Origin: a virus
Length of the DNA: 64,000 bases
Virus record (IMG/VR): IMGVR_UViG_3300046777_001606
Coordinates: 43,802-107,801 of that record
Reading direction: 5' to 3' (one strand)
Position 1 is the first letter of the stretch. Each line of letters opens with the position of its first letter. A program made the position numbers and the translations under genes. The notes under the pieces are model-generated. The model saw only the letters and a program-made list of their open reading frames with translations, ran no database searches and was not told the origin of the DNA. Of this stretch, positions 1,563 to 60,677 are shown piece by piece.

Positions 1563-4500
1563 ATGCCCCAAAAAACAAACCTCAATGTTTCTCCATATTT
1601 TGATGATTTTGATCCGAGAGATAATTACTATAAAGTCCTTTTTAAGCCAGGATATCCTGTTCAGGCTAGAGAATTAACAACGTTACAATCAATTCTTCTC
1701 AACCAATCAGAATCCTTTGGTAAGCATATATTTAAGGAAGGATCTGTAGTAATTCCTGGACAAGTAAGATACGACAATCCAATATACGCAGTTGAAATTG
1801 AATCAGAATTTAATGGAATTCCTATTTCATTATATTTTGATGAGATGCTCAACAAAACTGTTATTGGGGCAGATAGTGGAGTTAAAGCAACTATTTTTTA
1901 TTTACTAAAGAATACCGAATCTGAAAGAGGAAATTATACAATTTATGTAAAATATATTTCTGCAGGTGGGACAGACTTTACTAATAAAAAGTTCTTTGAT
2001 AATGAAAATTTAATCTTAGATACTGATTTAACTTATAGTGGGATTACAATTCCAAGTGGACAAGAATTTGTAAAAACAATCCAAACAAATGCTACCTCCG
2101 AAGGATCTTCTGCAACTGTAGCAGATGGTGTATATTTTATCAGAGGTATTTTCGCAAACGTCAATACTCAAACTATTCTTTTAGATCAGTACGGAACTTC
2201 ACCTTCATATAGAGTTGGATTTACTGTTGTTGAGTCCATAGTTACTTCAGATGATGATCCAGATTTATATGATAATGCACAAGGATTTTCAAATTTCTCT
2301 GCTCCTGGAGCAGATAGATTTAAATTAGACTTAATTTTCTCTAAAAAAGAAATCACAGATACTGATACAGATTCTTTTGTTGAAATATTAAGAGTAACAA
2401 ACGGAGTACCTGAGTATTTAAATTTAAACCCACAATATAATATTCTCAGAGAAGAAATTGCAAGAAGAGTTTATGATCAATCTGGTGATTTCTTTGTAAA
2501 ACCATTTACTCTTTATTTAAGAGACAGTTTAAATAATAGAACAACAACAGATGGTCTTTATTATGATGATCAGATTACGATCAATGGTAATAAACCATCT
2601 GACAATTTAATGATTTATGAAATTGGTCCAGGAAAAGCATACGTTAATGGATTTGATATTGAAACCAGATCAAAAAGATTTTTAGACGTAGAAAAACCAA
2701 GAACAACAAATACAATACAAGCAAATAATGTAACATATAATGCAGGGTTACTTTTCCCTGTAAATAATGGATATGGAGCTCCTCCCATAGGATTGGGAAC
2801 AGATGTAACATTAAGTTTGATGAATTCTAGAAAGAATTCTGATCCATCTGTTGCGGCAGGAACTACTATCGGATTAGCTCGTATATATGATTTTGTTCCC
2901 GAATCAAATTATGAAAATGCATCTAGTAGATTATCATTGAGATTATTTGATGTTCAAACTTACACTGTGATTGGTCTAACAACATCTATAACTCAATCAA
3001 CTCCAGCTGTTATAAAAGGTTCCAGAAGTAAAGCAACTGGATATTTGAGATCCAGCGTTACTGGTTCAAGTTCTTTAACTCTATATGACGTATCTGGATC
3101 ATTTATAGAAAATGAAGCGATTTCTATAAATGGCATTTCAAATGGAAGATTAATTAAAACAGTAACTGATTATGATATCTCAGATGTAAGATCTGTATAC
3201 GGAAAAGTTGGAACAACTACTTTTACTGCAGATACTATCTTAGAAAATAAGCAACTAATAGCTCCTGCAGGATCGACATTTCAAATTACCGCAAGATTTA
3301 GTGGTATAAGCACGGTATCCTGTGGATTAAACACCACTTTTATTAATAGTGTAAAAGTAAATGATATTATCACATATTCAAGTCCAAATCCAACTTCAGT
3401 ACCAATTTATAATAGAGTAGCAAGTATTGGTGCTGGCGGTACATTTTTTACAATTGCTGGTCTCACCACCGTATCTGGTATTTGTGATGGAACTTTACCA
3501 GCATCTTCGGTTACAGTTTCAAATATTACAAAACTTTATGGTTCTGTTTATAATCAATCAGATGCCTCTTTATTAACTTTACTCCCACAATCAGTAATTT
3601 CTAATATTTCTTTAGAAAATAATATTTTACGCCAAAGAATTGACTTCAAAACGGTAACTATTACTGCATCTTCACTAACTATTCAAATTACTGAACCAGA
3701 TTTATATTTCGAGTCATTTGATGAAGATAGATTTGTTATTAGTTATAGTGATGGAACTATTGAACCATTAAGAAGAGATAAGTATAGTTTAGATGTCACA
3801 GGAAAAATACTAACCTTCAATGGGTTATCTAAAACAACAGGAACAGCAAACGTAATTGCAACGGTTAAGAATTTAAAACCTAACTCCAAAAATAAAAAGT
3901 TCAATAAAGTTTCAACATTAGTCATTGATAGATCAAGATTAACATCGTCCGGTATTGGATCAACAACATTAAACGATGGATTAACCTATAGTCAAGTCTA
4001 TGGTACTAGAGTACAAGATGAAGATATTTGTCTTAACGTTCCCGATGTTGTAAGAGTTTTAGCTGTATATGAATCGGATTCCACATCAGATCCATCAATT
4101 CCAAAATTAGAATTATCTTCATTTACAGGTCAAACAAACTCTACAGCAGATTTTAACTTAGGTGAAGAACTTTTAGGAAAAACTAGTGGATCTGTTGCTT
4201 TAGTTGTTAATAAAGTTAATGCAACTAATATAGAAGTTGTGTATTTAAATGCATTTGAATTTGTTGAGGGTGAAGAAATAGTTTCGAAAGAAACTGCTGT
4301 AACTGCAAAAATAACAACGAAATATACAGTAAGTAAAAATATAACACAAAATTATAATTTCGATAACGGGCAAAGAGCTACATTATATGATTATGGTAGA
4401 ATTATTAGAAAAACTAATGTTGCTGCACCAACTAAAAAGATAGAAATAATATTCCAATACTATAGTATTGATAGCAATGATACTGGCGAATTTATAACTG

Positions 4501-7500
4501 TAAACAGTTATCCAGAAAGTTCATATAATATGGATATTCCATATTATGAAAACAATAGAGTAACTGATTATATTGATATAAGACCAAGAGTAGATGTTTA
4601 TAATCCATCAACAGCAACATTGTCTCCATTTGAATTTTCAACAAGAAGATTTGACGGAGCAGGAACATATTCAAAATATATTCTTGCACCTGATGAGAAT
4701 TTAAGTCTCAGTTATTCTTATTACCTGGGAAGAATTGATAGGTTGCTTTTGAATCCAGATGGAACATTTGAAGTTGCACAGGGAATTCCTGCAGATGATC
4801 CAATTCCACCACTATTAAAGGCAAATACATTAGATATTGCGAAGATTAATATTCCACCATACTTGTTTAATATTAAAAACGCACAAGTAGACATGTCTGT
4901 ACATAAGAGATACAGAATGTCTGATATTTCAATTCTTGAAGATAGAATTAGAAGAGTAGAAGAATATACGACGCTTTCTATGTTAGAAAGCAAAACAGAG
5001 AATTTAAAAATTAAAGATGCAGCTACGGGATTAGATAGATTTAAGTCAGGATTTTTTGTTGATAATTTTAGCACTCACGATTATCTCGATTTGAAAAATA
5101 TCTTATTTAGATCTTCTATTGATAAGAGTACAAATACTTTAAGACCAACAAATTATACATCTTCTTTAGATTTACAACTTGGATCAGAAGCTATTCTTGG
5201 AGTAACGACTTCATTTTCGTCAACAGCTGATCATGGATTTGTTTCAGACTTGGGTTCAATTGGAGTCAAAAAAACAGGAGATCTTGTAACTCTAGCATAT
5301 ACTGAAAAATTATATTTCCAACAAATATATGCAACAAGAACCGAAAATGTTACGCCTTTCTTAGTCAAATATTGGACCGGAGCCATTACATTAAATCCAC
5401 CAATGGATAACTGGGTAGATGAAGCTGCAGTTAGATCGACTAGTTTTAGAGAAGTAACAGAAATTACTCCACTTCCAGACATTAATATAACAAATGTAAA
5501 CAACATCACAGAAAATAGAGATGTATTTATCGATAATACTAATTTAACAGTTAATCCATCAGCGTCTTTTGATTGGATTGGAAATGCTAACACCTTAATT
5601 CAACAAAGGGTAGGAAGCGGTAGAGTCTCAATTAATACGAGTGCAAGCAATATTCGCTTAGAAATTAGAGGGCGTATTAATGGAGCAGAAGCAGAATTTG
5701 TACGTAGAGTTCTTCCACCAGATGCCGCTAGAGATTTTATTAATAGATCTAGTAGCAATGGTATTGCATTTATCAATTTTAATCCAAGAAGAGGTCAATT
5801 TACAAATATTAGAGAAACAACAAATGTATCTACATCTGTAAATACAACCTCAAATACTGTTACTACGGTTATTCCACCGGTTGTAACAACAAATGATGTC
5901 ATTACGGAATCAGTATCGCATTATACTCAAATAATAAGATTTTTAAGAAGTAGAAATATTGAATTTGATGTTAAAGGATTAAAACAAAGAACGATTTTTT
6001 ATCCATTCTTTGATTCAATAGACATATCAAGATATATCACACCAAAACTTCTAGAGATAAGAATGGTATCTGGTAAATTTGTTGCTGGAGAAACAGTAGA
6101 AAGTGATCCATTATTCACAAGAAGAAAAGCCAGATTTAGATTGTGTAGTCCAAATCATGAATATGGTCCATCGACAAATCCAACAAGTACTTTTGCATTA
6201 AATCCTTATGATCAACAGGTTTTCCCATCAAATTATACTGAGTCTTCAACTGTACTTAATGTAGATACCCACTCATTACAACTTCCATCAGAAACCGAAT
6301 TCTATGGATGTGTTGATGTTAATATGCCTTTGATAGGACAATCATCTGGAGCAAGAGCTGTTGTAACAAGAGTAAGACTACTTTCATCAAATAATGGAAG
6401 ATTAGTCGGATCATTCTTTGTTCCTGATCCAAATTCTCCAGGTAATCCACAATTTATTAATGGGACAAATACATTTACATTAATTGACACTCCGACACTA
6501 AATCCTGCTGCTACTGCAGCTGGAACAGAAGTTGTTTCCTCTGAAAGTAGTGCTGAAGAAGACTTTACTTCTAGTGGACAACTTAATATAACTGAAACTA
6601 ATGTATTAACTACAAGAAATATTAGAATTACTCCAGCTAGAAATGTTAACACAACAACGATAACAAACACTACAACAAACACTACAACAAGAACTAGAGC
6701 TGGAACACAAATATCTCCAGTATGGGAGGTTTGGGACCCGCTCGCACAATCATTCTATGTTCCCGATGAAAGTGGAATATTCTTAACTTCTGTAGAGGTT
6801 TTCTTTGAAACTAAGGATAATAATGGAATCCCCGTAACATTACAAATTAGACCAATGGTTAATGGTCTTCCAAGTGATATGGTTGTTCCATTTTCTGAAG
6901 TAACCCTGACTCCAGATCAAATAAGACTTTCTGGAAATGGAACTGTAGCTACTAAATTTACTTTCCCAAGTCCGGTATACTTATCGGGACCTCAACAACA
7001 GGAGATAAGACAAGCTCCTATTGGTAGTCAACAATCTTCCCAATTCTGTGTAGTTTTATTATCTCTTAGTGCAGAATATAGAGTCTTTATTGCTAGACTT
7101 ACAGAAAATGATATTATTAGTGGTGTTAAGATAACTAAACAACCAACTCTTGGAAGTCTGTTTAAATCGCAAAATGGATCTACGTGGTCTCCAAGTCAAC
7201 TAGAAGATTTGAAATATAATTTATACAGAGCAGAATTTGTAAATGAAGGTCTCCTCAGATTCTATAATCCAAAATTATCTGCTAAAAATAAAAAAGTTAC
7301 TGTTTTACCAGCAAATGGTGTTGTTCCATTATCCAAAAAAATTATTGTTGGATTAGGATCCACTGGATATAGTGCAACAAATATAGTTCCAGGAGTAACT
7401 TTGATTCAGGGATCTGCAACGGGAACTTTAACTGCTATTGGCGGAAGTATTACCGCAGGAACAGGAGTAACAGTTACAAATCCAGGGACTGGATATACAA

Positions 7501-26062: not shown

Positions 26063-27031
26063 ATGAATAATTTTGTAAAAAAATGTTTGGATCATGGTGG
26101 TCAAATTAAACCATTAATAATTCCATCAGAATTAACAAATGGTACGGGATTATTTAATCCATCAGTTTTTGTTGATGGTGAAAAAATATTAGTTAATGTA
26201 CGTCACTGTCAATATACACTTTACCATGCGGAATTAAAAAAATATGAGCACCAATGGGGACCTTTAGTTTATTTGAATCCAGAAAATGATATTAGTTTAA
26301 CAACAACAAATTATGTTTGTGAGATTGATGAATACTTAAATATTACATCATATAAAAAAGTTAATACTTCAGTATTGGATAAAAAGCCACTTTGGGAATT
26401 TGTTGGATTGGAAGATGCAAGATTGATCAAATGGGACAATAAATTTTATCTTACTGGAGTAAGACGAGATCTTGATACCATAGGAACTGGAAGAATGGAA
26501 TTGAGTGAAATTGAAATCTTGAAAAATGATGTCAATGAAGTTTCAAGATTTCGTATTCCGGCACCGAAAAAAAATGATTCGTACTGTGAAAAAAATTGGA
26601 TGCCAATTATAGATCAACCATATCATTATGTAAAATGGACAAATGGAACTGAAGTTGTAAAAGTTGATCCAAATAGCAAAACATGCGAAACTGTTGTTCT
26701 AAAGAATTTTATTCCTCACAATAAAGACCTCAGAGGAGGTTCTCAAGTTATTCCATACAAAGATGGATATTTAGCTTTGAATCATGAAACAGATTTATAT
26801 AAATCTGAGGCAGGTCGAAAAGATGCTACCTATAGGCATAGATTTACATATTGGAACAAAAATTGGGATATTCAAAAATTTTCAGATGTATTTTCATTTT
26901 TAAATGCAAAAATTGAATTTGCTTGTGGGTTATCAAAATATAAAAATGATTATATAATAACTTTTGGATTTCAGGATAATGCTGCATATATTCTTAGAGT
27001 TCCAGGATCATTTATGGAAAGTTTTGTATGA
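26063..27031 (+). CDS. Five-bladed beta-propeller glycosidase/phosphorylase-like protein
   Basis: This 322-residue protein has the layout of the GH43/GH130-like five-bladed beta-propeller superfamily: TGLFNPSVFVDGEKILVNVR near residue 29, WEFVGLEDARLIKWDNKFYL near residue 112, followed by TGVRRD, and GGSQVIPYKDGYLALNHE near residue 225. The GLEDARL motif corresponds to the ED-R-L core of these propellers. It overlaps the following glycosyltransferase gene by 4 bases (ATGA), so the two form a glycan-processing pair. No signal peptide is visible, so it acts inside the host cell or as a virion component. The substrate is unknown. Confidence 0.6.
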   Translation: MNNFVKKCLDHGGQIKPLIIPSELTNGTGLFNPSVFVDGEKILVNVRHCQYTLYHAELKKYEHQWGPLVYLNPENDISLTTTNYVCEIDEYLNITSYKKVNTSVLDKKPLWEFVGLEDARLIKWDNKFYLTGVRRDLDTIGTGRMELSEIEILKNDVNEVSRFRIPAPKKNDSYCEKNWMPIIDQPYHYVKWTNGTEVVKVDPNSKTCETVVLKNFIPHNKDLRGGSQVIPYKDGYLALNHETDLYKSEAGRKDATYRHRFTYWNKNWDIQKFSDVFSFLNAKIEFACGLSKYKNDYIITFGFQDNAAYILRVPGSFMESFV

Positions 27032-28998
27032 ATAAATTAAAATCTTTACCGTCAGTTTATTATGTCACTTTAGAAGACAGTAAAGAAAGACAAGATATTT
27101 TAAAAGAACAATTTTTTCATTATGGAATAACTCCCAATGCAATTACTTCAAAAAGATATAACGAATCAAATGATATTATTACTGGAAAATATGTTTACCA
27201 ATTAACAGATCAAACAAAAGGAAATGCAACATCACACTTAAAAGCTTTATTACATTGGTATGAAAATACTGATGAAGAATATGGATTTTTTTGTGAGGAT
27301 GATTTGAGTTTGGAGACAGTAAAATATTGGAACTTTACTTGGGAAGAATTCATTTTGAGTTTGCCAAGTGATTGGCAAGCAGTTCAACTCACAGTTATTA
27401 GAGATAAATTTGATTGTGTTAGATTTAGAGAAAGATTATGGGATGATTGGGCAGTAACTGCATACATTTTAAAAAGAGATTATGTTCGTTCAGTTATCAA
27501 TAATTATTGTAGAGAAAATTCTTATCATTTAGAATTAAAAAATTGTGATGTTATGCCAATATGCGAGAATTTGCTTTTAAGTAATATATCAAAAGTTTAT
27601 AGTATACCCCTCTTTATAGAAAATACAAATATAAGTTCCACAAATTTGCAAGATATAGAATTGAAAAATGGACAAAAACCTAATCATTATTATTCTGCGG
27701 ATTATGTTTTAAATTGGTGGGAAAAAAATGGAAAAATTTACAGTTTAAATATGATTATGGACAATAAGTATCCAGAACTTATCGATTATTGTTTAGATAG
27801 TGAAGATGCAGAAAAAAACTTTAATCTTGCATTGTGGTATGAAAATCAAGGACAAACAGCTTCTGCCATATCTTTTTTTATAAGATCTGCAGAAAGAACC
27901 GACGATATATTAATGTCATATGAGTGTTTAATAAGAGCATCACTTTGTTTTGATAGACAAGGAAATAGAAATAGTACTGTTCGAGGTTTACTTCAACATG
28001 CAATTTCTATTTGTCCGGAAAGACCAGAAGCATATTACTTATTGAGTAGATTTGATGAAAGACATCAAATGTATGCTGATTGCTATACGATGTGTAATAT
28101 CGCTCTTTCAACATGCAATTTCAATTGCAGTCCTTTGCTAACAGATGTTGAATATCCAGGAAAATACGGTTTAATCTTTGAAAAGGCTGTGTCCTCGTAT
28201 TGGTGGGGTAAAGGTGAAGAAAGTAGGCAACTATTTCAGATACTAAAAAATGAGTATAAAGAAGAACTTGATGATATTCATTATAATTCTGTACAAACAA
28301 ATTTAATGAATCTTGGATGTTGGATTTCAAAAAGTATTAAATATGAAAGATCAAGGTATGACCAATTTAAATTTAAATTTAATGGTCTAGAAAAAATTGA
28401 AAAGAGTAATGGACAAGCTCTTCAAGATATGTTCATTTTAAGTATTTTAAATGGAAAAGAAAATGGATTGTATCTTGAGATAGGAGCTCAAGAACCCTTT
28501 TTCCAAAATAATACTGCAATTTTAGAAACAGATTTTGGTTGGAAAGGAATTTCTATTGAAATTAAAGAAGATCTTTGTAACATGTTTTCTCAACAAAGAA
28601 AAAACAAAATTTTGTGTGCAGATGCAACAACTGTAGATTATTCAAAGTTACTAAAAGAATTTAATAGTGGTACAGTATTTGATTTTCTACAACTAGATTG
28701 CGAACCATCAAAAACAACATTTGAAGTCCTTTTAAATATTCCATTTGATGAATACAAATTTGCAATTATTGCCTATGAACATGATCATTATGTGGACATG
28801 ACAGGAACTTATAGAAATAAATCTAGAAATTATTTGAAGGCAATGGGGTATGAATTAGTTGTTGCAAATGTATCTCAAAACGAAAATACACCTTTTGAAG
28901 ATTGGTGGGTTCATCCAGACTTGATAGATAAAGAAACTATTGAAAAATTTAAGTCAATTCAAGAAGTGACTGATGTAAGAAAATATTTCTATTCATAA
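27028..28998 (+). CDS. GT25 glycosyltransferase - TPR - FkbM methyltransferase fusion
   Basis: This is a 656-residue, three-part protein. Residues 1-200 look like a GT25-family glycosyltransferase: SVYYVTLEDSKERQDILKEQ at the start and the FFCEDDLSLE metal-binding acidic motif near residue 92. Residues about 265-430 are TPR-like helical repeats (ALWYENQGQTASAISFFIRS, CPERPEAYYLLSR). Residues about 455-625 are FkbM-type methyltransferase: GLYLEIGAQEP (SAM-binding motif I) near residue 479 and FLQLDCEPSKTTFEV near residue 552. It is coupled to the beta-propeller gene by an ATGA overlap. Sugar transfer and methylation of a surface glycan or virion protein is inferred. The domain order is clear; the substrate is not. 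Confidence 0.75.
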   Translation: MNKLKSLPSVYYVTLEDSKERQDILKEQFFHYGITPNAITSKRYNESNDIITGKYVYQLTDQTKGNATSHLKALLHWYENTDEEYGFFCEDDLSLETVKYWNFTWEEFILSLPSDWQAVQLTVIRDKFDCVRFRERLWDDWAVTAYILKRDYVRSVINNYCRENSYHLELKNCDVMPICENLLLSNISKVYSIPLFIENTNISSTNLQDIELKNGQKPNHYYSADYVLNWWEKNGKIYSLNMIMDNKYPELIDYCLDSEDAEKNFNLALWYENQGQTASAISFFIRSAERTDDILMSYECLIRASLCFDRQGNRNSTVRGLLQHAISICPERPEAYYLLSRFDERHQMYADCYTMCNIALSTCNFNCSPLLTDVEYPGKYGLIFEKAVSSYWWGKGEESRQLFQILKNEYKEELDDIHYNSVQTNLMNLGCWISKSIKYERSRYDQFKFKFNGLEKIEKSNGQALQDMFILSILNGKENGLYLEIGAQEPFFQNNTAILETDFGWKGISIEIKEDLCNMFSQQRKNKILCADATTVDYSKLLKEFNSGTVFDFLQLDCEPSKTTFEVLLNIPFDEYKFAIIAYEHDHYVDMTGTYRNKSRNYLKAMGYELVVANVSQNENTPFEDWWVHPDLIDKETIEKFKSIQEVTDVRKYFYS

Positions 28999-29001: not shown

Positions 29002-29020
29002 TAAAAAAGTGCGCTTTATA

Positions 29021-30889
29021 ATGCATAAGATTAAATCCCATAAAACAGTTGAACAGATTGCAAAGAAGCATCGTCTTGATGTTTCTTTCATTCAAAAGCA
29101 ACTCGATATGGGAGAACCAATTGAACATGAGCACACTCAAGATCATGATTTAGCTAAGGACATTGCTCTGCAGCATTTAGATGAAATTCCCGATTACTAC
29201 ACTCGTTTGAAAAAAATGGAAGCGGATGCTAAAAAGCATCATAAGCAATTTAAAGATGTAAAAGAAGAAACAACTTCAGGAGATGATGGTCTTCATGATT
29301 GGTTTAATAAATCAAAATCATCTGATGGGAAAAAAGGTTGGGTTCAATTGGGTGGCAAATATGCAGGAAAACCATGCGCTCGCCAACCAGGTCAAACTTC
29401 TACTCCCAAATGCGGAAGTTCTAAAATGAAAAAAGCACTTTCGAAAGATGAAGAAGAAGCAGCAAGACGTAGAAAAAATCGCTTAGATCCAAATCAACCA
29501 GAAAAATCTGGTGGCGCTAAACCAACAAATGTAAGAACTGAAGAGATGGACCTACAAGAAGTAAAGGATAAACCAGGAAAGGGTAGCGGCAAAAAAGATG
29601 CATGTTACCAAAAGGTAAAATCAAGATATGATGTTTGGCCAAGTGCATATGCATCTGGCGCATTAGTTAAGTGCCGTAAAGTTGGTGCGGCAAATTGGGG
29701 AACTAAATCAGAAGCAGTTGAAAATGAAGAGCAAAGATATTGCCCACTATGCGATAAAAGAGAAACAAGATCAGAGTGTTCTTACGGAGAAAAAACTTGG
29801 GATAAAGTTTCGATTAAAGATCATGAATACTCAATGGCTAGGTCCGAATTAAAAAATATTATTGATGCAGCTAAAAGGCTTGAAAAGAAGGTAGGAAAAG
29901 GAGAAGGATCATTGGAAGCTTGGGTACAATCGAAAATTACCAAAGCAGCAGATTATATTGATACTGCAGCAGATTATGTTGCAAGTGGAGAAATGCAGGA
30001 AGCAAAAACACTTGGGTTTGAAATTAGAAAGTCTTCTGGAGCTGGAGCACTTACTCCAGATGCAGCAAAACAATTGGGTCCAAAAGCAGTTGAACTCCAA
30101 AAGAAAAAAGCTGCCGCAGTTGATTTGCCAAAAGTAAGAAAAGAACATACTGGTATTGTTGCAGATATCTTAAAAGAGATTGAAGAAGAAGGACCTTGCT
30201 GGAGAGGTTATAAACAAGTAGGAATGAAGAAAAAGGGTAAAAAGATTGTTCCGAATTGCGTTCCTATGAGAGAAGAAAATAAAAATATCTGTTCATATTG
30301 TGGATGCGATCCATGCGAATGCGAAAAAATTAATGAATCTGTTCGTTTACCTGCTATGAATGGAAATATTATTGAAATAATTCTTTCTTGGAGAGGAAAA
30401 ACTTATATTTCAAAAATGTTTTTCCCCCAAACAAAAGTTCCGAATAGAAGAGAAATTACTGACGAGATCGTAAAAGTTTATCCAGATGCTAAAGTTCTGG
30501 CATTTAAAGTTTCAGATTTGCAGCCAGGTCAACCATTGATTCAAGCAGGATTGCAAGGAGGAAGTGCTGCTACTCCCGGTCCATCTAAAAAATATGTAAA
30601 ACCCTATGGAGAACAACTAGAATTCAATGAAGACTGGCAAAAAGTTAATCGCCAAGATAAAACTGATGGATTAAGTCCTGCTGCAGTAAAAGCATATCGT
30701 CAAGAAAATCCAGGATCTAAGTTACAAACTGCAGTAACAGAAAAGAAACCAACTGGAAAAAGAGCAAAACGTCGTGCCTCATTTTGTCGCCGTATGAAAG
30801 GCATGAAATCCAAATTAACTTCAGCAGAAACTGCTAGAGATCCCGATTCAAGAATCAACAAAGCACTTCGTCGTTGGAACTGTAACTAA
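29021..30889 (+). CDS. Multidomain virion-associated protein (DUF5661-like N-terminus, zinc motifs)
   Basis: The N-terminus (HKTVEQIAKKHRLDVSFIQK, then EHEHTQDHDLAKDIALQHLD, then DYYTRLKKME) matches the DUF5661-type helical domain. A basic Gly/Lys region with KGWVQLGGKYAGKPCARQPG follows. Two Cys clusters suggest zinc sites: YCPLCDK...C near residue 242 and CSYCGCDPCEC near residue 425. A domain at about 445-505 (LSWRGKTYISKM ... VYPDAKVLAFKV) resembles the next gene's product. The C-terminus is strongly basic (KRAKRRASFCRRMKGMKSK). I chose ATG 29021; an upstream GTG at 29009 would add four residues. A DNA-associated or head-internal role is an inference from the basic, zinc-rich character. 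Confidence 0.65.
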   Translation: MHKIKSHKTVEQIAKKHRLDVSFIQKQLDMGEPIEHEHTQDHDLAKDIALQHLDEIPDYYTRLKKMEADAKKHHKQFKDVKEETTSGDDGLHDWFNKSKSSDGKKGWVQLGGKYAGKPCARQPGQTSTPKCGSSKMKKALSKDEEEAARRRKNRLDPNQPEKSGGAKPTNVRTEEMDLQEVKDKPGKGSGKKDACYQKVKSRYDVWPSAYASGALVKCRKVGAANWGTKSEAVENEEQRYCPLCDKRETRSECSYGEKTWDKVSIKDHEYSMARSELKNIIDAAKRLEKKVGKGEGSLEAWVQSKITKAADYIDTAADYVASGEMQEAKTLGFEIRKSSGAGALTPDAAKQLGPKAVELQKKKAAAVDLPKVRKEHTGIVADILKEIEEEGPCWRGYKQVGMKKKGKKIVPNCVPMREENKNICSYCGCDPCECEKINESVRLPAMNGNIIEIILSWRGKTYISKMFFPQTKVPNRREITDEIVKVYPDAKVLAFKVSDLQPGQPLIQAGLQGGSAATPGPSKKYVKPYGEQLEFNEDWQKVNRQDKTDGLSPAAVKAYRQENPGSKLQTAVTEKKPTGKRAKRRASFCRRMKGMKSKLTSAETARDPDSRINKALRRWNCN

Positions 30890-30890
30890 A

Positions 30891-31205
30891 ATGAAATCCT
30901 TTCAACAATTCATGTCCGAGTCAGTTAATATTTCTGGCGACTTTAATGGAAATCTTTATATAAATTCTCCTCAAGAACCACAGCAAGTTGGCGAAGAATA
31001 TGTTGCTGATGTAATGTGGAATGGGAGTCTTTATAGACTAGAATTAGTAACAAAGTCTGGAATTCCTACAAAAAAAGATTTGGGAGAACAATTGCAATCA
31101 GATTATCCTGGTGCAGTAGTACACCAGATTTATCCAGTTACAGAAAAAAATTTTAATATCAAAAACGCACAAAGATATCACCCATCAAAATTAGATTGGA
31201 TTTAA
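30891..31205 (+). CDS. Candidate internal head protein with capsid-targeting N-terminus
   Basis: This 104-residue protein starts one base after the preceding stop. Its first ten residues, MKSFQQFMSE, closely resemble the T4 internal-protein capsid-targeting sequence MKTYQEFIAE, which the gp21 protease removes after the Glu. The remainder (ADVMWNGSLYRLELV ... IPTKKDLGEQLQSDYPGAVV) shares a W-x-G-x-x-Y ... P ... Y-P-x-A-x-V pattern with the C-terminal part of the upstream gene. Packaging in the head and ejection with DNA is inferred from the N-terminus, not proven. The predicted cleavage site has Met at P3 instead of the usual Leu/Ile. Confidence 0.65.
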   Translation: MKSFQQFMSESVNISGDFNGNLYINSPQEPQQVGEEYVADVMWNGSLYRLELVTKSGIPTKKDLGEQLQSDYPGAVVHQIYPVTEKNFNIKNAQRYHPSKLDWI

Positions 31206-31208
31206 TAT

Positions 31209-32483
31209 ATGGCTATTTGGAATAAGAATACACAAGACTTTCTAGATCAAGAAAGATCTTTATTTGAGGTTTATAATATTGCAGATCACTGGGGAAACCA
31301 GACAGATTGGAGACCTCAATTTTCTAATAACAACAGATTAAAAGTTGCTCCGTTCCAAACAGTTTTCTTTAATACCTTTCAGTATGGTAAAGAAACTGAT
31401 GTTTGGGATGAGAGAATCGTTGGAGTTGGAACTGCAACTCATAATGTTTCTGCTAGTAATGTAATCATGCAAGTTGGTTCTACTATGGGTAGTAAAGTCA
31501 TCAGGCAAACCAAGAATGTGATGAGATACATTCCTGGTAGACCAGCAACTCTTGCATTCGCAATTCGTCTTGATACTCCACAGGTAGGTATTCGTAGAAG
31601 ATTTGGATTGTTTGATGATTATAATGGCGCATACTTTGAGGATAATGGTGGAACATATTCATATGTAATTCGCACTACTACATCTGGTATCACTACAGAA
31701 ATAGCAGTAGGTAGAGATAATTGGAATGGTGAAAAGTTTGATGGTAATGGTTGGACTGGTATAACCGCAGACCCAACAAAACAACAGATGATTTCTATTG
31801 CTTATGAGTGGTATGGTGCAGGAACTGTAGATTTTGCTTGGTTAATGGCAGGCGAAACTGTTAAGAGTCATACCTTTTATAACTCAAACATTAATGATAA
31901 GGTTTGGTGTTCTACTCCATTCCTTCCTATTCGTCTTGAAATTGAGAACATAGTTGGTGTTGCAGGAACTCATTATCTTTATCAGGGTTCCAATTCTCTT
32001 ATTCAGGAAGGAGAACCAGAAAAACTTGGAACTCTTTTGAGTATTGCAAATCCCATCACGGGAACAACGATGTCATTGGCAAATACATTCTATCCAATTG
32101 TAAGTATTCGTTTGAAGAGTACTAATTTAACTGGTGTGATGCTTTTGAGATCATTGCAGGCAGCAACGAATGATAATACTAATGTTTATTGGAAACTTAT
32201 TCAGAATGCAACAAATACAGGCGGAACTTGGGTAGATCATCCAGATCCAAACTCTTTTATGCAATATAATATTACTGAAACTGCAACGACTGGTGGAACT
32301 ACTTTGTTAAATGGATTTATTGTTGGTGGTGGTGCAGCATTGATTAATATTGATGATAAAGCAGCCCTTCAGTTAGGTAGAAGTGGTATTGGAACAATTA
32401 GTGATACTTATACTCTCGCTTGTGCATCTCCTAATGTTAATAAAGCAGCACTTGCAGTATTGAACTGGATTGAACAAAGGTAA
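31209..32483 (+). CDS. Virion structural protein (424 aa), paralogue of the gene at 23001
   Basis: This protein begins MAIWNKNTQDFLDQERSLFE and shares a long region with the 1009-residue protein at 23001: QTKNVMRYIPGRPATLAFAI, FGLFDDYNGAYFEDNGG, AYEWYGAGTVDFAW and HTFYNSNINDKVW align in order with QTRRYFRYQSGKG, VGLYDDQNGFFFEYD, YTWYGAGFIRFGF and HKISNNNINTAAY. Both are strand-rich without enzyme motifs. It is the last gene of the accessory structural island, directly before gp17 (6-base gap). A baseplate or tail-fibre-associated role is inferred. Confidence 0.72.
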   Translation: MAIWNKNTQDFLDQERSLFEVYNIADHWGNQTDWRPQFSNNNRLKVAPFQTVFFNTFQYGKETDVWDERIVGVGTATHNVSASNVIMQVGSTMGSKVIRQTKNVMRYIPGRPATLAFAIRLDTPQVGIRRRFGLFDDYNGAYFEDNGGTYSYVIRTTTSGITTEIAVGRDNWNGEKFDGNGWTGITADPTKQQMISIAYEWYGAGTVDFAWLMAGETVKSHTFYNSNINDKVWCSTPFLPIRLEIENIVGVAGTHYLYQGSNSLIQEGEPEKLGTLLSIANPITGTTMSLANTFYPIVSIRLKSTNLTGVMLLRSLQAATNDNTNVYWKLIQNATNTGGTWVDHPDPNSFMQYNITETATTGGTTLLNGFIVGGGAALINIDDKAALQLGRSGIGTISDTYTLACASPNVNKAALAVLNWIEQR

Positions 32484-39881: not shown

Positions 39882-40532
39882 ATGAAACTAATCACAGAAG
39901 AAATCGAATCAGTAGAATTTATTGTCGAAGAAAACGACGGTAAAAAATCTTTGTATATTGAGGGAATTTTTCTTCAAGGCGATATTAAAAATCGCAATGG
40001 TAGAATGTATCCTATGGAAACTCTCCGCCGCGAGGTTGCCAGATATACTGAGAATCACATTTCTGCAGGCAGAGCACTTGGAGAACTTGGACACCCTGAT
40101 GGTCCAACTGTAAATTTAGATAGAGTATCTCACAAAATTGTTTCCTTAAAAGAAAGTGGATCAAACTTTGTAGGCAAAGCAAAAATTTTGAATACTCCAA
40201 TGGGAAAAATTGCGTCTTCTTTAATTGAAGAAGGTGTAAAGCTTGGTGTTTCTTCTCGTGGTATTGGATCCCTTACAATAAGTCGTGAAGGAGTCAATGT
40301 TGTTGGTAACGACTTTATGCTAGCAACTGCTGCTGATATTGTAGCAGATCCTTCAGCCCCTGATGCTTTTGTTGAAGGAATTATGGAAGGTAAAGAGTGG
40401 GTTTGGGACGGTGGAATACTTAGAGAAAAGTTTGCACAAAAAACATATAAGAGAATTAATACTTTAGTTGATCAAAAAAGACTTGAAGAGCAGAAATTAA
40501 ATCTATTTAATGATTTTCTTTCAAATTTATAA
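39882..40532 (+). CDS. gp21: Prohead core scaffold and protease gp21
   Basis: gp21 is the maturation protease that cleaves the scaffold, the capsid protein and internal proteins after a [LI]xE motif. I chose ATG 39882 (MKLITEEIESVEFIVEE), giving 216 residues (T4: 212); an upstream in-frame ATG would run back into the preceding gene. The family motifs are present: IEGIFLQGDIKNRNGRMYPM near residue 28, RALGELGHPDGPTVNLDRVS with the catalytic His near residue 71, and KLGVSSRGIGSL with the nucleophile Ser near residue 123. It sits between portal and scaffold genes as in T4. Confidence 0.94.
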   Translation: MKLITEEIESVEFIVEENDGKKSLYIEGIFLQGDIKNRNGRMYPMETLRREVARYTENHISAGRALGELGHPDGPTVNLDRVSHKIVSLKESGSNFVGKAKILNTPMGKIASSLIEEGVKLGVSSRGIGSLTISREGVNVVGNDFMLATAADIVADPSAPDAFVEGIMEGKEWVWDGGILREKFAQKTYKRINTLVDQKRLEEQKLNLFNDFLSNL

Positions 40533-40580: not shown

Positions 40581-41723
40581 ATGTCTCGTGGAGATTTACA
40601 AGAAATGGAAGTAGGCACTAAGCAATCCAAAACTGCCGTAAACGCAAATGCTAAGGCTGCAGAATCTGCACCTTCTTTAAGTGGTGCAACCCCAGGACAA
40701 ACTGGTAGTTGGGAAGATCTTGGTGGACCTGATCCTTCAAACTACAAGTCAACCGACGATTCAGCAAAGCTGAAGACTCCTGGCGCAACACTTAAGCAAG
40801 TTAAAGATATTGTGAATAAGGGTGCAAAACCTGCAATGGCTGCTGCGGGAGTTAAGGAAGAGAATGAAGAAGATGATGAACTCTTAGAGGAAACTGAAGA
40901 GAAAGAAGAAGAAATCTTAGAAGCTAAGAAAGAGGAAGAGAAAGAAGAAAAAGAAAAAGACGAAGACGAAGAAGAGGACGAAGAAGAGGAAGTGAAGGAA
41001 GAGTATAGCATCGATGAAGATGTTAACGCTCTTATTGGTAATGAAGATCTTTCAGAAGAGTTTAAAGAAAAGGCAAAGACCATTTTTGAAGCTGCTCTGA
41101 AGTCAAAGGTTAATGAAGTAAAAGAAGCTCTAGAGGCTCAATACGAGCAACAACTTCTTGAAGAAGTTGAATCAATTAAAGAAGAAATTAAGGATCGTTT
41201 AGATTCTTATCTTGAGTATGTTGCAGAAGAGTGGTTTACAGAAAACGCTCTTGCAATTGAGCACGGTCTTAAGACTGAAATGACCGAATCATTCCTCCAA
41301 GGAATGAAAGGTCTTTTTGAAGAACATTATGTATCAATCCCTGAAGATAAATATGATGTACTTGATAGCATGGTACAAAAACTTGATGAAATGGAAGAAA
41401 AACTCAACGAGCAGATTGAGAAAAACATTTCACTCAACAAGCGTCTCGCAGAGTCGGTTGCTGATGGAATTCTAGATCAAGTTTCTGAGGGTCTTGCGGC
41501 TACTCAGAAAGAAAAGCTCGCTTCACTTGCCGAAAGTGTTGAGTTTGAAAGTGAAGAAGAATATCGTGAAAAACTGGAGATGCTGAAGGAATCATATTTC
41601 CCAGCAGGTAAGTCTCCATCCGCTAAAACCGAAAGTCTTTCGGAGCAAGTAGACAGTTCACCAGAATCTATGACTGGTACAATGGCTGCCTACCTGAAGA
41701 CTCTTTCAGCATTTAGCAAATAA
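40581..41723 (+). CDS. gp22: Prohead scaffold protein gp22
   Basis: gp22 is the major scaffold protein of the prohead core and is degraded by gp21. The 380-residue protein (T4: 269) is very acidic and helical. A Glu/Asp/Lys-rich stretch lies at about residues 92-145 (EEEKEEKEKDEDEEEDEEEE), followed by long heptad-like helices (KAKTIFEAALKSKVNEVKEA, ESIKEEIKDRLDSYLEYVAE). The C-terminal ESMTGTMAAYLKTLSAFSK resembles the conserved end of cyanophage gp22, where the scaffold contacts the shell. It lies between gp21 and gp23. Codon use shifts toward more C/G-ending codons than in the tail genes. Confidence 0.92.
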   Translation: MSRGDLQEMEVGTKQSKTAVNANAKAAESAPSLSGATPGQTGSWEDLGGPDPSNYKSTDDSAKLKTPGATLKQVKDIVNKGAKPAMAAAGVKEENEEDDELLEETEEKEEEILEAKKEEEKEEKEKDEDEEEDEEEEVKEEYSIDEDVNALIGNEDLSEEFKEKAKTIFEAALKSKVNEVKEALEAQYEQQLLEEVESIKEEIKDRLDSYLEYVAEEWFTENALAIEHGLKTEMTESFLQGMKGLFEEHYVSIPEDKYDVLDSMVQKLDEMEEKLNEQIEKNISLNKRLAESVADGILDQVSEGLAATQKEKLASLAESVEFESEEEYREKLEMLKESYFPAGKSPSAKTESLSEQVDSSPESMTGTMAAYLKTLSAFSK

Positions 41724-41777: not shown

Positions 41778-43208
41778 ATGTTCCATTCAGAGCATCTGCA
41801 GGAAAAGTGGGCACCTCTCCTCAACTATGAGGGTCTTGATCCAATCAAAGATTCCCATCGTAGAGCGGTAACCGCCGTCCTGTTAGAAAACCAAGAAAGA
41901 TTTTTAAGAGAGCAATCTGCTTTCGAAAGCACCGGTTCATTCCTGACCGAAGCTCCAACCAACGCAACTAACTCTGGAACCAATCCTGGTTTCTCGGGAA
42001 CAGCTGCTGCTGGTGGTCCTACTGCAGGTTTTGACCCTGTTCTGATCTCACTGATCAGACGTTCAATGCCTAACCTGATCGCCTATGATATTGCAGGCGT
42101 TCAGCCAATGAGCGGTCCTACTGGACTCATCTTCGCAATGCGTTCACGCTACACCAACCAGAGCGGAACCGAGACCTTCTACAACGAAGTTGATTCGGCA
42201 TTCTCCGGTCAAGATTTCGGATTCGACGAAACCGATGGAATGACCGCTGTTAACTCTGGTATGGGTACTACTGCCCAGTCAGGCACCAATCCATCAGTTC
42301 TCAACCCAGTCGGTACTGCTGCATCCAACGGTTATAACGTTGGTCAAGGTATGCGTACTGATGCCGCTGAAGATCTTGACGGCACTACCACCAATGCATT
42401 CAACCAGATGGCTTTCTCGATTGAGAAAGTCACCGTTACTGCAAAGTCAAGAGCTCTGAAAGCTGAGTACTCATTAGAACTCGCTCAAGACCTCAAGGCA
42501 ATCCATGGTCTGAATGCTGAGGCTGAATTAGCAAACATTCTCTCGACCGAGATTCTTGCTGAAATCAACCGCGAAGTTATCAGAACCATCTATAAGGTTG
42601 CTGAGCAAGGTGCTGTCCAAAACACCGCTACCGCTGGTGTATTCGACCTCGACGTTGACTCCAATGGTCGTTGGTCAGTTGAGAAGTTCAAGGGTCTCCT
42701 GTTCCAAATCGAGCGTGATGCTAACGCAATCGCACAAAGAACTCGTCGCGGAAAGGGCAACATCATCCTGTGCTCTGCTGACGTTGCTTCAGCACTGACC
42801 ATGGCTGGTGTTCTCGATTACACCCCTGCACTCAACGCTAACCTCACCGTTGACGACACTGGTAACACCTTCGCTGGTGTTCTGCAAGGTAAGTATCGTG
42901 TTTATATCGATCCTTATGCTGCTAACCTGACCTCTGCTAATGCAGGACCTACAGGTGGTAACCAGTACTACGTTGTTGGTTATAAGGGTTCTTCACCTTA
43001 TGACGCAGGTCTCTTCTACTGCCCATATGTTCCTCTCCAAATGGTACGTGCCGTTGGTGAGAACTCCTTCCAGCCCAAGATTGGCTTCAAGACTCGTTAT
43101 GGTCTTGTTGCTAACCCATTCGCTGAAGGAACCAACCAAGGTCTTGGTGCTCTCACAGTTAACCAAAACCGTTACTACAGAAGAGTTGCTGTTAAGAACC
43201 TCATGTGA
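41778..43208 (+). CDS. gp23: Major capsid protein gp23
   Basis: gp23 is the hexameric head shell protein, 476 residues (T4: 521). Conserved blocks include SLIRRSMPNLIAYDIAGVQP near residue 91, MSGPTGLIFAMRSRY, KSRALKAEYSLELAQDLKAI near residue 222, HGLNAEAELANILSTEILAE, and the C-terminal NRYYRRVAVKNLM. A likely gp21 cleavage site lies at SFLTE|AP, after residue 58, which would remove the N-terminal propeptide. Codon use is strikingly C/G-ending compared with neighbouring genes, as expected for the most abundant phage protein. A strong terminator follows. The upstream gap has a TAATATAATT stretch but no clear CTAAATA. Confidence 0.97.
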   Translation: MFHSEHLQEKWAPLLNYEGLDPIKDSHRRAVTAVLLENQERFLREQSAFESTGSFLTEAPTNATNSGTNPGFSGTAAAGGPTAGFDPVLISLIRRSMPNLIAYDIAGVQPMSGPTGLIFAMRSRYTNQSGTETFYNEVDSAFSGQDFGFDETDGMTAVNSGMGTTAQSGTNPSVLNPVGTAASNGYNVGQGMRTDAAEDLDGTTTNAFNQMAFSIEKVTVTAKSRALKAEYSLELAQDLKAIHGLNAEAELANILSTEILAEINREVIRTIYKVAEQGAVQNTATAGVFDLDVDSNGRWSVEKFKGLLFQIERDANAIAQRTRRGKGNIILCSADVASALTMAGVLDYTPALNANLTVDDTGNTFAGVLQGKYRVYIDPYAANLTSANAGPTGGNQYYVVGYKGSSPYDAGLFYCPYVPLQMVRAVGENSFQPKIGFKTRYGLVANPFAEGTNQGLGALTVNQNRYYRRVAVKNLM

Positions 43209-60509: not shown

Positions 60510-60677
60510 ATGAAATCTTTCCGCCAGTTTTTTAATGAAGTAAAAACGATTGCATATCCTGCAGCAAAACCACATAAAGTTTATCGTAAGGGAAAAGTGA
60601 CTAATGTTGGTTCTGGTAGGGCAGTCCCAATTAATCCTGGAAGTGGTGCTGGTGATGGGGGAGGTGACGGAGAATAA
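60510..60677 (+). CDS. Candidate internal head peptide with capsid-targeting N-terminus
   Basis: This 55-residue protein begins MKSFRQFFNEVKTIA, almost the same as the N-terminus of the protein at 30891 (MKSFQQFMSES) and close to the T4 internal-protein capsid-targeting sequence MKTYQEFIAE. A basic middle (AKPHKVYRKGKVTNVGSGRA) follows and then a Gly/Asp-rich tail (GSGAGDGGGDGE). If gp21 cuts after the Glu, a basic 45-residue peptide would remain in the head. It is driven by a late promoter although its neighbours are early genes. It has no recognised homologue in T4 beyond the targeting segment. Confidence 0.6.
   Translation: MKSFRQFFNEVKTIAYPAAKPHKVYRKGKVTNVGSGRAVPINPGSGAGDGGGDGE

Follow-up and report, generated by a model that had tools for sequence, protein, structure and literature searches.

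The internal proteins that cyanophages eject into their hosts are hardly known, and one small gene in the DNA analysed here (the window: 64,000 nucleotides of a 107,801-base IMG/VR virus record, itself a fragment) raises the question of whether its product might be one of them. The gene (30891..31205, plus strand) is an ATG-start ORF for a 104-aa protein whose translation begins MKSFQQFMSESVNISG... (MKSFQQFMSESVNISGDFNG...). It lies in a T4-like late gene order, with a single base between it and the stop of an upstream 626-aa ORF (29009..30889, +; DUF5661 and DUF6321 by Pfam), and 3 bases ahead of a 424-aa ORF for a virion structural protein (31209..32483, +; phrog_1645, E=1.6e-174), which is followed, by synteny with S-SCSM1, by the large terminase. 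Among the relatives listed, the next gene is no more than 60 bases away in 72/80, and begins MA[QI]WN in at least 67 of those 72. The protein belongs to phrog_1742, a family annotated "unknown function" whose profile covers residues 1-99 (E=5.8e-43); a Pfam scan returned no match at E up to 1. Relatives were found in 139 phage records (E up to 0.01), each of which has Synechococcus, Prochlorococcus or cyanophage in its name, and for many cyanophage isolates the match reaches residue 95 only. Further upstream (26063-28998), the structural gene cluster also takes in genes of two other kinds, glycosyl-hydrolase-130-like (below cut-off) and glucosyltransferase-like (phrog_2835).

The initial annotation likened the first ten residues, MKSFQQFMSE (30891..30920, +), to the start of T4 internal proteins, and this likeness holds. 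Two proteins read in the T4 genome (NC_000866), which we take to be IPI and IPIII, start MKTYQEFIAE; five of the ten residues are identical (M1, K2, Q5, F7, E10), and the window copy has S for T at position 3, F for Y at 4 and M for I at 8. The pattern MK[ST][FY]QxFxxE was likewise confirmed at the start of the 104-aa protein, the span 30891-30923 of the initial annotation comprising codons 1-11 and thus one codon more than the tag proper. In T4, truncation and suppressor work showed that ten residues are sufficient, residues 4 and 7 being the most important for targeting and residues 8 and 10 for processing, and gp21 cleaves after L/I-x-E (PMC9026906); tags of this type are described in several accounts (PMC3012670, PMC9026906, PMC5694885). 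Following the T4 rule and the gp23 site described below, the putative gp21 cut in the window protein would fall between Glu10 and Ser11 (30918..30923, +); Met8 in this copy is not the L or I that the T4 rule, taken strictly, calls for. The protein resembles T4 internal proteins in its ten-residue N-terminal tag, aromatic residue at 4, Phe7, Glu10 and small cargo body, and differs from them in the Met at position 8 and in that its packaging is predicted. A profile of the 104-aa family met no T4 six-frame segment (>=50 aa) at domain E<0.05, so that the protein does not descend from a T4 internal protein; rather, it bears an address that looks to be of the same type.

Conservation among relatives falls on the positions that matter in T4. 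We compared the best 80 of 459 IMG/VR loci with a second, more divergent set (the best 80 of 95 loci, the lowest identity with its query being 45%), which overlap slightly and hold 115 distinct proteins in total; both lean slightly towards the tag, because one in six seed peptides per search was the N-terminus itself. In all 115 distinct relatives listed, position 4 is F or Y, position 7 is F and position 10 is Glu, while position 8 is I or L in 108 and Met, as in the window protein, in 7; positions 3, 5, 6 and 9 vary in both sets of 80. The aligned start Met is common to all 115, and by this sequence comparison the start codon of the ORF is sound. Codons vary synonymously in the first set, which points to selection on the protein; a conserved DNA leader or translation signal is ruled out by the same synonymous variation across codons 2-10.

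Nor does the motif arise by chance. In 11 cyanophage sequences (that of S-PM2 is partial, and the record containing the window is itself a fragment), MK[ST][FY]xxFxxE opens 11 of 7,171 six-frame ORFs (>=40 aa, first Met) and is seen at none of 11,130 Mets further along, and four control motifs with shifted Phe open 0, 3, 0 and 0 ORFs. A broader motif occurs at 36 of 3,130 called gene starts, a few of them evidently false starts, compared with 6 of 6,840 internal ATGs (12 sequences including T4); these gene calls missed S-CREM2 gp175, S-SZBM1_192 and the window ORF at 60510. Across IMG/VR, a DNA pattern for MK[ST]FxxF[ILMF]xEA was found in at least 120 stretches, and 121 of the 124 matches listed have a stop no more than 25 codons upstream. 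A shifted control returned 17 stretches and is imperfect, because MKSFFQFLxEA fits both patterns: 14 fit both, with starts resembling that of the tagged NMNAT gene, and 3 remain. Start versus later-Met counts, proximity to upstream stops and shifted controls together exclude a chance match. In the partial S-PM2 record, the narrower MKx[FY]xxFxxE does not occur.

The window phage also resembles T4 in possessing the apparatus on which such a tag would act, namely prohead protease gp21 (39882..40532, +; 39.8% identical to T4 gp21 where the two align, E=8.9e-28), prohead core scaffold gp22 (40581..41723, +; tblastn against T4 gp22, E=4.9e-13) and major capsid protein gp23 (41778..43208, +). The last bears TGSFLTE/AP at residues 52-58 (41931-41951), corresponding in T4 gp23 to GSFLTE/A, where the cut falls after the Glu at residue 65. 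The end of the tag, F-[LIM]-x-E, follows the same pattern as the F-L-T-E of the gp23 site, and other cyanophage gp23s have FLAE, FLSE, FLGE, MIAE, ILTE, LLTE, MLNE or MLSE at this place.

Published virion proteomes speak to whether tagged proteins reach the particle. In S-SCSM1, S-CREM2 and S-SZBM1 (S-CREM1, with 14 virion proteins according to PMC9964418, was left out), the virion lists include 7 of the 11 annotated genes that bear the tag and 123 of the 708 that do not (P=0.0009, one-sided Fisher test), under a broad motif that was widened after some sequences had been seen; the narrower MKx[FY]xxFxxE, in use before the S-CREM2 search, gave 3/5 (P=0.04), and both P values are only a guide because the three proteomes share orthologues, NMNAT counting once in each. 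By phage, detection was 1/2 in S-SCSM1, 5/6 in S-CREM2 and 1/3 in S-SZBM1. Annotation was covered in full for S-SCSM1 and in parts for S-SZBM1, and S-CREM2 starts were taken from the record for 105-150 kb and otherwise from the paper's table; matches that are not annotated starts were dropped (S-SCSM1 72883, 137535 and 194172; S-SZBM1 4347, 87820 and 141149). CDS totals are the papers' ORF counts (282 and 218) or record features minus two tRNAs (219), and S-SCSM1 detection follows the record label 'virion protein', carried by 48 CDS as counted here, while the paper gives 45 (PMC9602691).

Enzymes are among the detected proteins. The S-SCSM1 NMNAT ORF91 (MKSFLQFLKE) is labelled a virion protein, and the tagged cytidylyltransferase S-SZBM1_140 (MRFRQFIIE) was detected in S-SZBM1 virions (as given in PMC9146016). 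Five tagged proteins are listed for S-CREM2 virions in Table 3 of PMC10665884: SAM hydrolase ORF6 (MKDFDSFLEE), ORF13 (MKDLHSFLTE), kinase ORF14 (a GTG start, then KRFDAFLTE), ORF136 (MQTFSMFFSE) and cytidylyltransferase ORF154 (MKNFSSFLTE); tagged gp136 (8 peptides) sits in the same terS-terL island as gp137, a virion protein taken up below. The Cas9-annotated S-CREM2 ORF12, with LRFASFMAEA within its first 26 residues, was left out of the 7/11. The initial annotation held that the same N-terminus being common in cytoplasmic phage enzymes would refute a packaging signal; the tag does occur on enzymes, but those in the three proteomes (NMNAT/cytidylyltransferase in each, a kinase and a SAM lyase) were found in virions. 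Carry-over of abundant proteins is allowed by the S-SCSM1 and S-CREM2 authors (PMC9602691, PMC10665884), and detection in CsCl virions does not establish position inside the head. The tag moreover does not account for every non-structural virion protein, since the lytic enzymes listed in S-SCSM1 and S-CREM2 virions, and the virion-labelled translational repressor ORF70 of S-SCSM1, are without it. NMNAT is also reported, in PMC10665884, from virions of S-CBWM1, which is not T4-like; the S-CBWM1 NMNAT has no tag.

The proteomes are less kind to the 104-aa protein itself. Its S-SCSM1 orthologue, ORF30 (79% identity), lacks the virion label that both its neighbours carry, and its S-SZBM1 orthologue, S-SZBM1_191, is not among the detected virion proteins in Table 1 of PMC9146016; the same table lacks tagged S-SZBM1_192, and tagged S-CREM2 gp175 is absent from the virion table of PMC10665884. 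Length does not fully explain the missed ORF30, since it would yield two usable tryptic peptides of 7-30 residues (9 and 16 residues; the window copy would yield one). Across the predicted cut, the tryptic peptide is 47 aa long in the window copy and 45 aa in S-SCSM1. Low copy number would also explain a missed orthologue, and loss after assembly is the main rival explanation.

The body of the protein bears on the same question. An AlphaFold2 model built on 48 aligned sequences (mean pLDDT 66.7) places a low-confidence helix at residues 4-9 (block mean pLDDT 50), followed by a low-confidence arm at about residues 8-32 (block pLDDT 40-42 for residues 11-30); residues 11-32 (30921..30986, +) comprise a stretch, SVNIxGDFNG, conserved in the alignment, and a mostly low-confidence linker in the model. 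A core beta-beta-alpha-beta domain spans about residues 33-86 (30987..31148, +), as indicated by the model (beta-beta-alpha-beta at 36-82, block pLDDT 70-88 for residues 31-80) and a core HMM, and the protein ends in the conserved tail RYHPSKLDWI (residues 95-104; 31173..31202, +), in which R95, Y96, H97, P98, K100, L101 and W103 are invariant in the 48 sequences. The core HMM finds the same domain within S-SCSM1 ORF29 (E=1.4e-7), which shares its place in the gene order with the window 626-aa protein, and weakly matches that 626-aa neighbour at about 30374-30514 (E=0.0017 in the first pass; the second-pass 1.7e-14 is not independent, as the profile then includes the neighbour). On S-CREM2 gp137 it gives E=0.073, and 2e-8 after one iteration excluding gp137, and BFVD also returns the S-SCSM1 virion protein (E=1.9e-4). 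Both ORF29 and gp137 appear among the virion proteins of their phages, so the core domain is virion-borne elsewhere.

Fold assignment was attempted and set aside as too weak. A PDB search with the core gave no match under E=0.001, the best being T7 Gp2 (Z 5.3, 49 residues superposed at rmsd 2.0 A, E=0.49 in Foldseek), with a crAss001 vertex protein (Z 4.9), YkzG (4.7) and ribosomal proteins at similar Z. The likeness to T7 Gp2, an inhibitor of host RNA polymerase, is one of fold only (12% identity), with a Z in the range of a common arrangement. By sequence, the only solved structure returned was CurL (E=1.5), which is not meaningful.

Taken together, that the N-terminus is a T4-type capsid-targeting tag is very likely, being well supported by the conserved functional residues, the virion-detected tagged proteins and the conservation of gp21 and the gp23 site. 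Packaging of the 104-aa protein appears probable on this analysis, and we rate the tag reading in general above the packaging of this protein alone. The packaging role put forward in the initial annotation is supported in part, well as regards the tag and not yet as regards a place for this protein in the virion, its orthologues in S-SCSM1 and S-SZBM1 being undetected. For the explanation as a whole, in which the protein bears a T4-type capsid-targeting tag and is packaged, cleaved and ejected, we estimate a probability of about 0.72. The short N-terminal helix would bind the gp22 scaffold core during head assembly, and the protein would be enclosed as the gp23 shell forms; gp21 would then cut after Glu10, leaving a mature protein of 94 residues (flexible arm, small beta-beta-alpha-beta domain and conserved tail) that may stay with the DNA and be ejected into the host.

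A less probable alternative, which we regard as unlikely, accepts that the tag leads to the prohead core, and holds that the protein acts only as an assembly or core factor that is degraded or lost rather than ejected. The absence of orthologues from two virion proteomes is as this would predict, and the gene lies among late head and tail genes, ahead of a virion structural protein; T4 itself offers a precedent in gp68, a core protein with no copies in the mature head (Table 1 of PMC9026906). A further L/I-x-E triplet in the mature part of the protein, LGE at residues 64-66, suggests that gp21 might degrade it, but the triplet falls within the predicted core helix, and the core domain, which is itself conserved aside from the tag, occurs in two proteins that remain part of the virion. 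That the motif is instead a virion-association signal for neck, tail or baseplate seems to us quite improbable: whole-virion mass spectrometry cannot separate compartments and the island neighbours are virion proteins, but the same residues form the T4 head signal (PMC9026906), the end of the tag matches the F-L-T-E of gp23, and the lytic enzymes of S-SCSM1 and S-CREM2 virions are without the tag.

Very improbable, finally, is a reading in which the N-terminus is a helix that docks onto some partner in the cytoplasm, or a leader that arose by convergence, and its likeness to T4 has no bearing on packaging. The tag-like start of T4 gp61.1 (54 aa; NC_000866 18966-19130), which begins MKTFKEFIKE, is compatible with this, but the tag is found on at least 34 protein clusters, nearly always at gene starts among the matches listed, tagged genes are enriched among virion proteins, and a tagged NMNAT/cytidylyltransferase appears in all three proteomes. 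Of these readings, we favour the capsid-targeting tag on a packaged and ejected protein.

The spread of the tag over unrelated proteins carries the argument beyond this locus. The search for tagged starts proposed in the initial annotation did recover unrelated proteins: the 120 tagged proteins among the IMG/VR matches listed form 34 clusters (BLASTP, E 1e-5), and tagged genes are enriched in virions as described. The representative of the largest cluster listed (59 proteins) resembles the tagged cytidylyltransferase/NMNAT of S-SM2, and tagged enzymes of P-SSM2 and S-CREM2 match cytidyltransferase families. On 20 cluster representatives, Pfam gave most no match above cut-off, with support for a GNAT acetyltransferase, DUF6267, DUF5661 and a DPBB domain; S-CREM2 adds a tagged SAM lyase (ORF6) and a kinase (ORF14, with a sub-threshold Pkinase match). 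The window holds a second tagged ORF, of 55 aa (60510..60677, +; MKSFRQFFNE), for which MK[ST][FL]xQF[LIF]xE is kept in 53/53 IMG/VR relatives, and for which a search of the phage collection with an E limit of 1 gave no hit.

Some tagged proteins share a further module of the type LGLxSDGHGxWYD after the tag, among them NMNAT (S-SCSM1 ORF91), a kinase (S-CREM2 ORF14) and the Cas9-annotated protein (S-CREM2 ORF12). A profile built from the post-tag stretch of six tagged proteins found ten carriers among the sequences analysed, six of them the seeds themselves. The four independent carriers are an S-RIM8 NMNAT-like protein, S-CREM2 ORF12 and a pair from S-CRM01, of which one bears the annotation serine/threonine kinase and has MISFDQFLSE at its annotated start. 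In 9 of the 10 carriers a tag of the form [FL]xxF[ILM]xE lies upstream of the module, and PMC10665884 mentions, second-hand, a protein kinase in S-CRM01 virions.

We lean, with rather less assurance than for the explanation given for the 104-aa protein, towards a general cargo code, in which one ten-residue tag would see unrelated proteins loaded into the head, relieved of the tag by gp21 and ejected with the DNA, in T4-like cyanophages and other aquatic phages. If so, its cargo would include an NAD-synthesis enzyme, kinases, a SAM lyase, a Cas9-annotated protein, acetyltransferases, cell-wall-type domains and the small domain of the 104-aa protein, some of it with LGLxSDGHGxWYD as a second shared module. 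The virion NMNAT/cytidylyltransferase of cyanophages (S-SCSM1 ORF91, S-CREM2 gp154, S-SZBM1_140) has the same tag as the 104-aa protein on an unrelated enzyme body, followed in some phages by the DGHGxW module. Because the tag occurs on unrelated enzymes found in particles, it is probable that cyanophages deliver a packed complement of proteins to the host cell along with their DNA.

The propeptide of T4 Alt differs in sequence from the internal-protein tag. The tagged cyanophage enzymes, which bear the internal-protein type, are nonetheless paralleled by Alt as a head-borne enzyme processed by gp21 (PMC9026906). In the giant phage SPN3US, the prohead protease also removes N-terminal propeptides from inner head proteins, though most of these are far longer than ten residues (PMC5694885). 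In the open-licence literature we found no report of capsid-targeting tags in cyanophages, which is not proof of absence. The groups that reported NMNAT, kinases and a nuclease in cyanophage virions left open whether these were packaged or carried over (PMC9602691, PMC10665884); under a cargo code, virion enzymes suspected as contaminants would be deliberate first-minute effectors. A readable tag yields a testable prediction of packaging, and candidate effectors of those first minutes, from sequence alone, and suggests how cyanophages could be made to carry foreign cargo. If a SAM lyase and kinases enter the cell together with the DNA, this would matter for restriction and for the way hosts are taken over in the ocean.

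Several smaller observations concern tagged genes and their untagged kin. The DUF5661/DUF6321 protein of 626 aa in the window is without the tag, and a DUF5661 protein on an IMG/VR stretch (L229), from a cluster of ten tagged proteins, begins MKTFQEFILEA. On another (L243), two tagged genes adjoin, one (3736-4149) encoding a 138-aa protein with a YYHGTPESS stretch and no Pfam match, which may be ADP-ribosyltransferase-like, and the other (4149-4529) a GNAT acetyltransferase.
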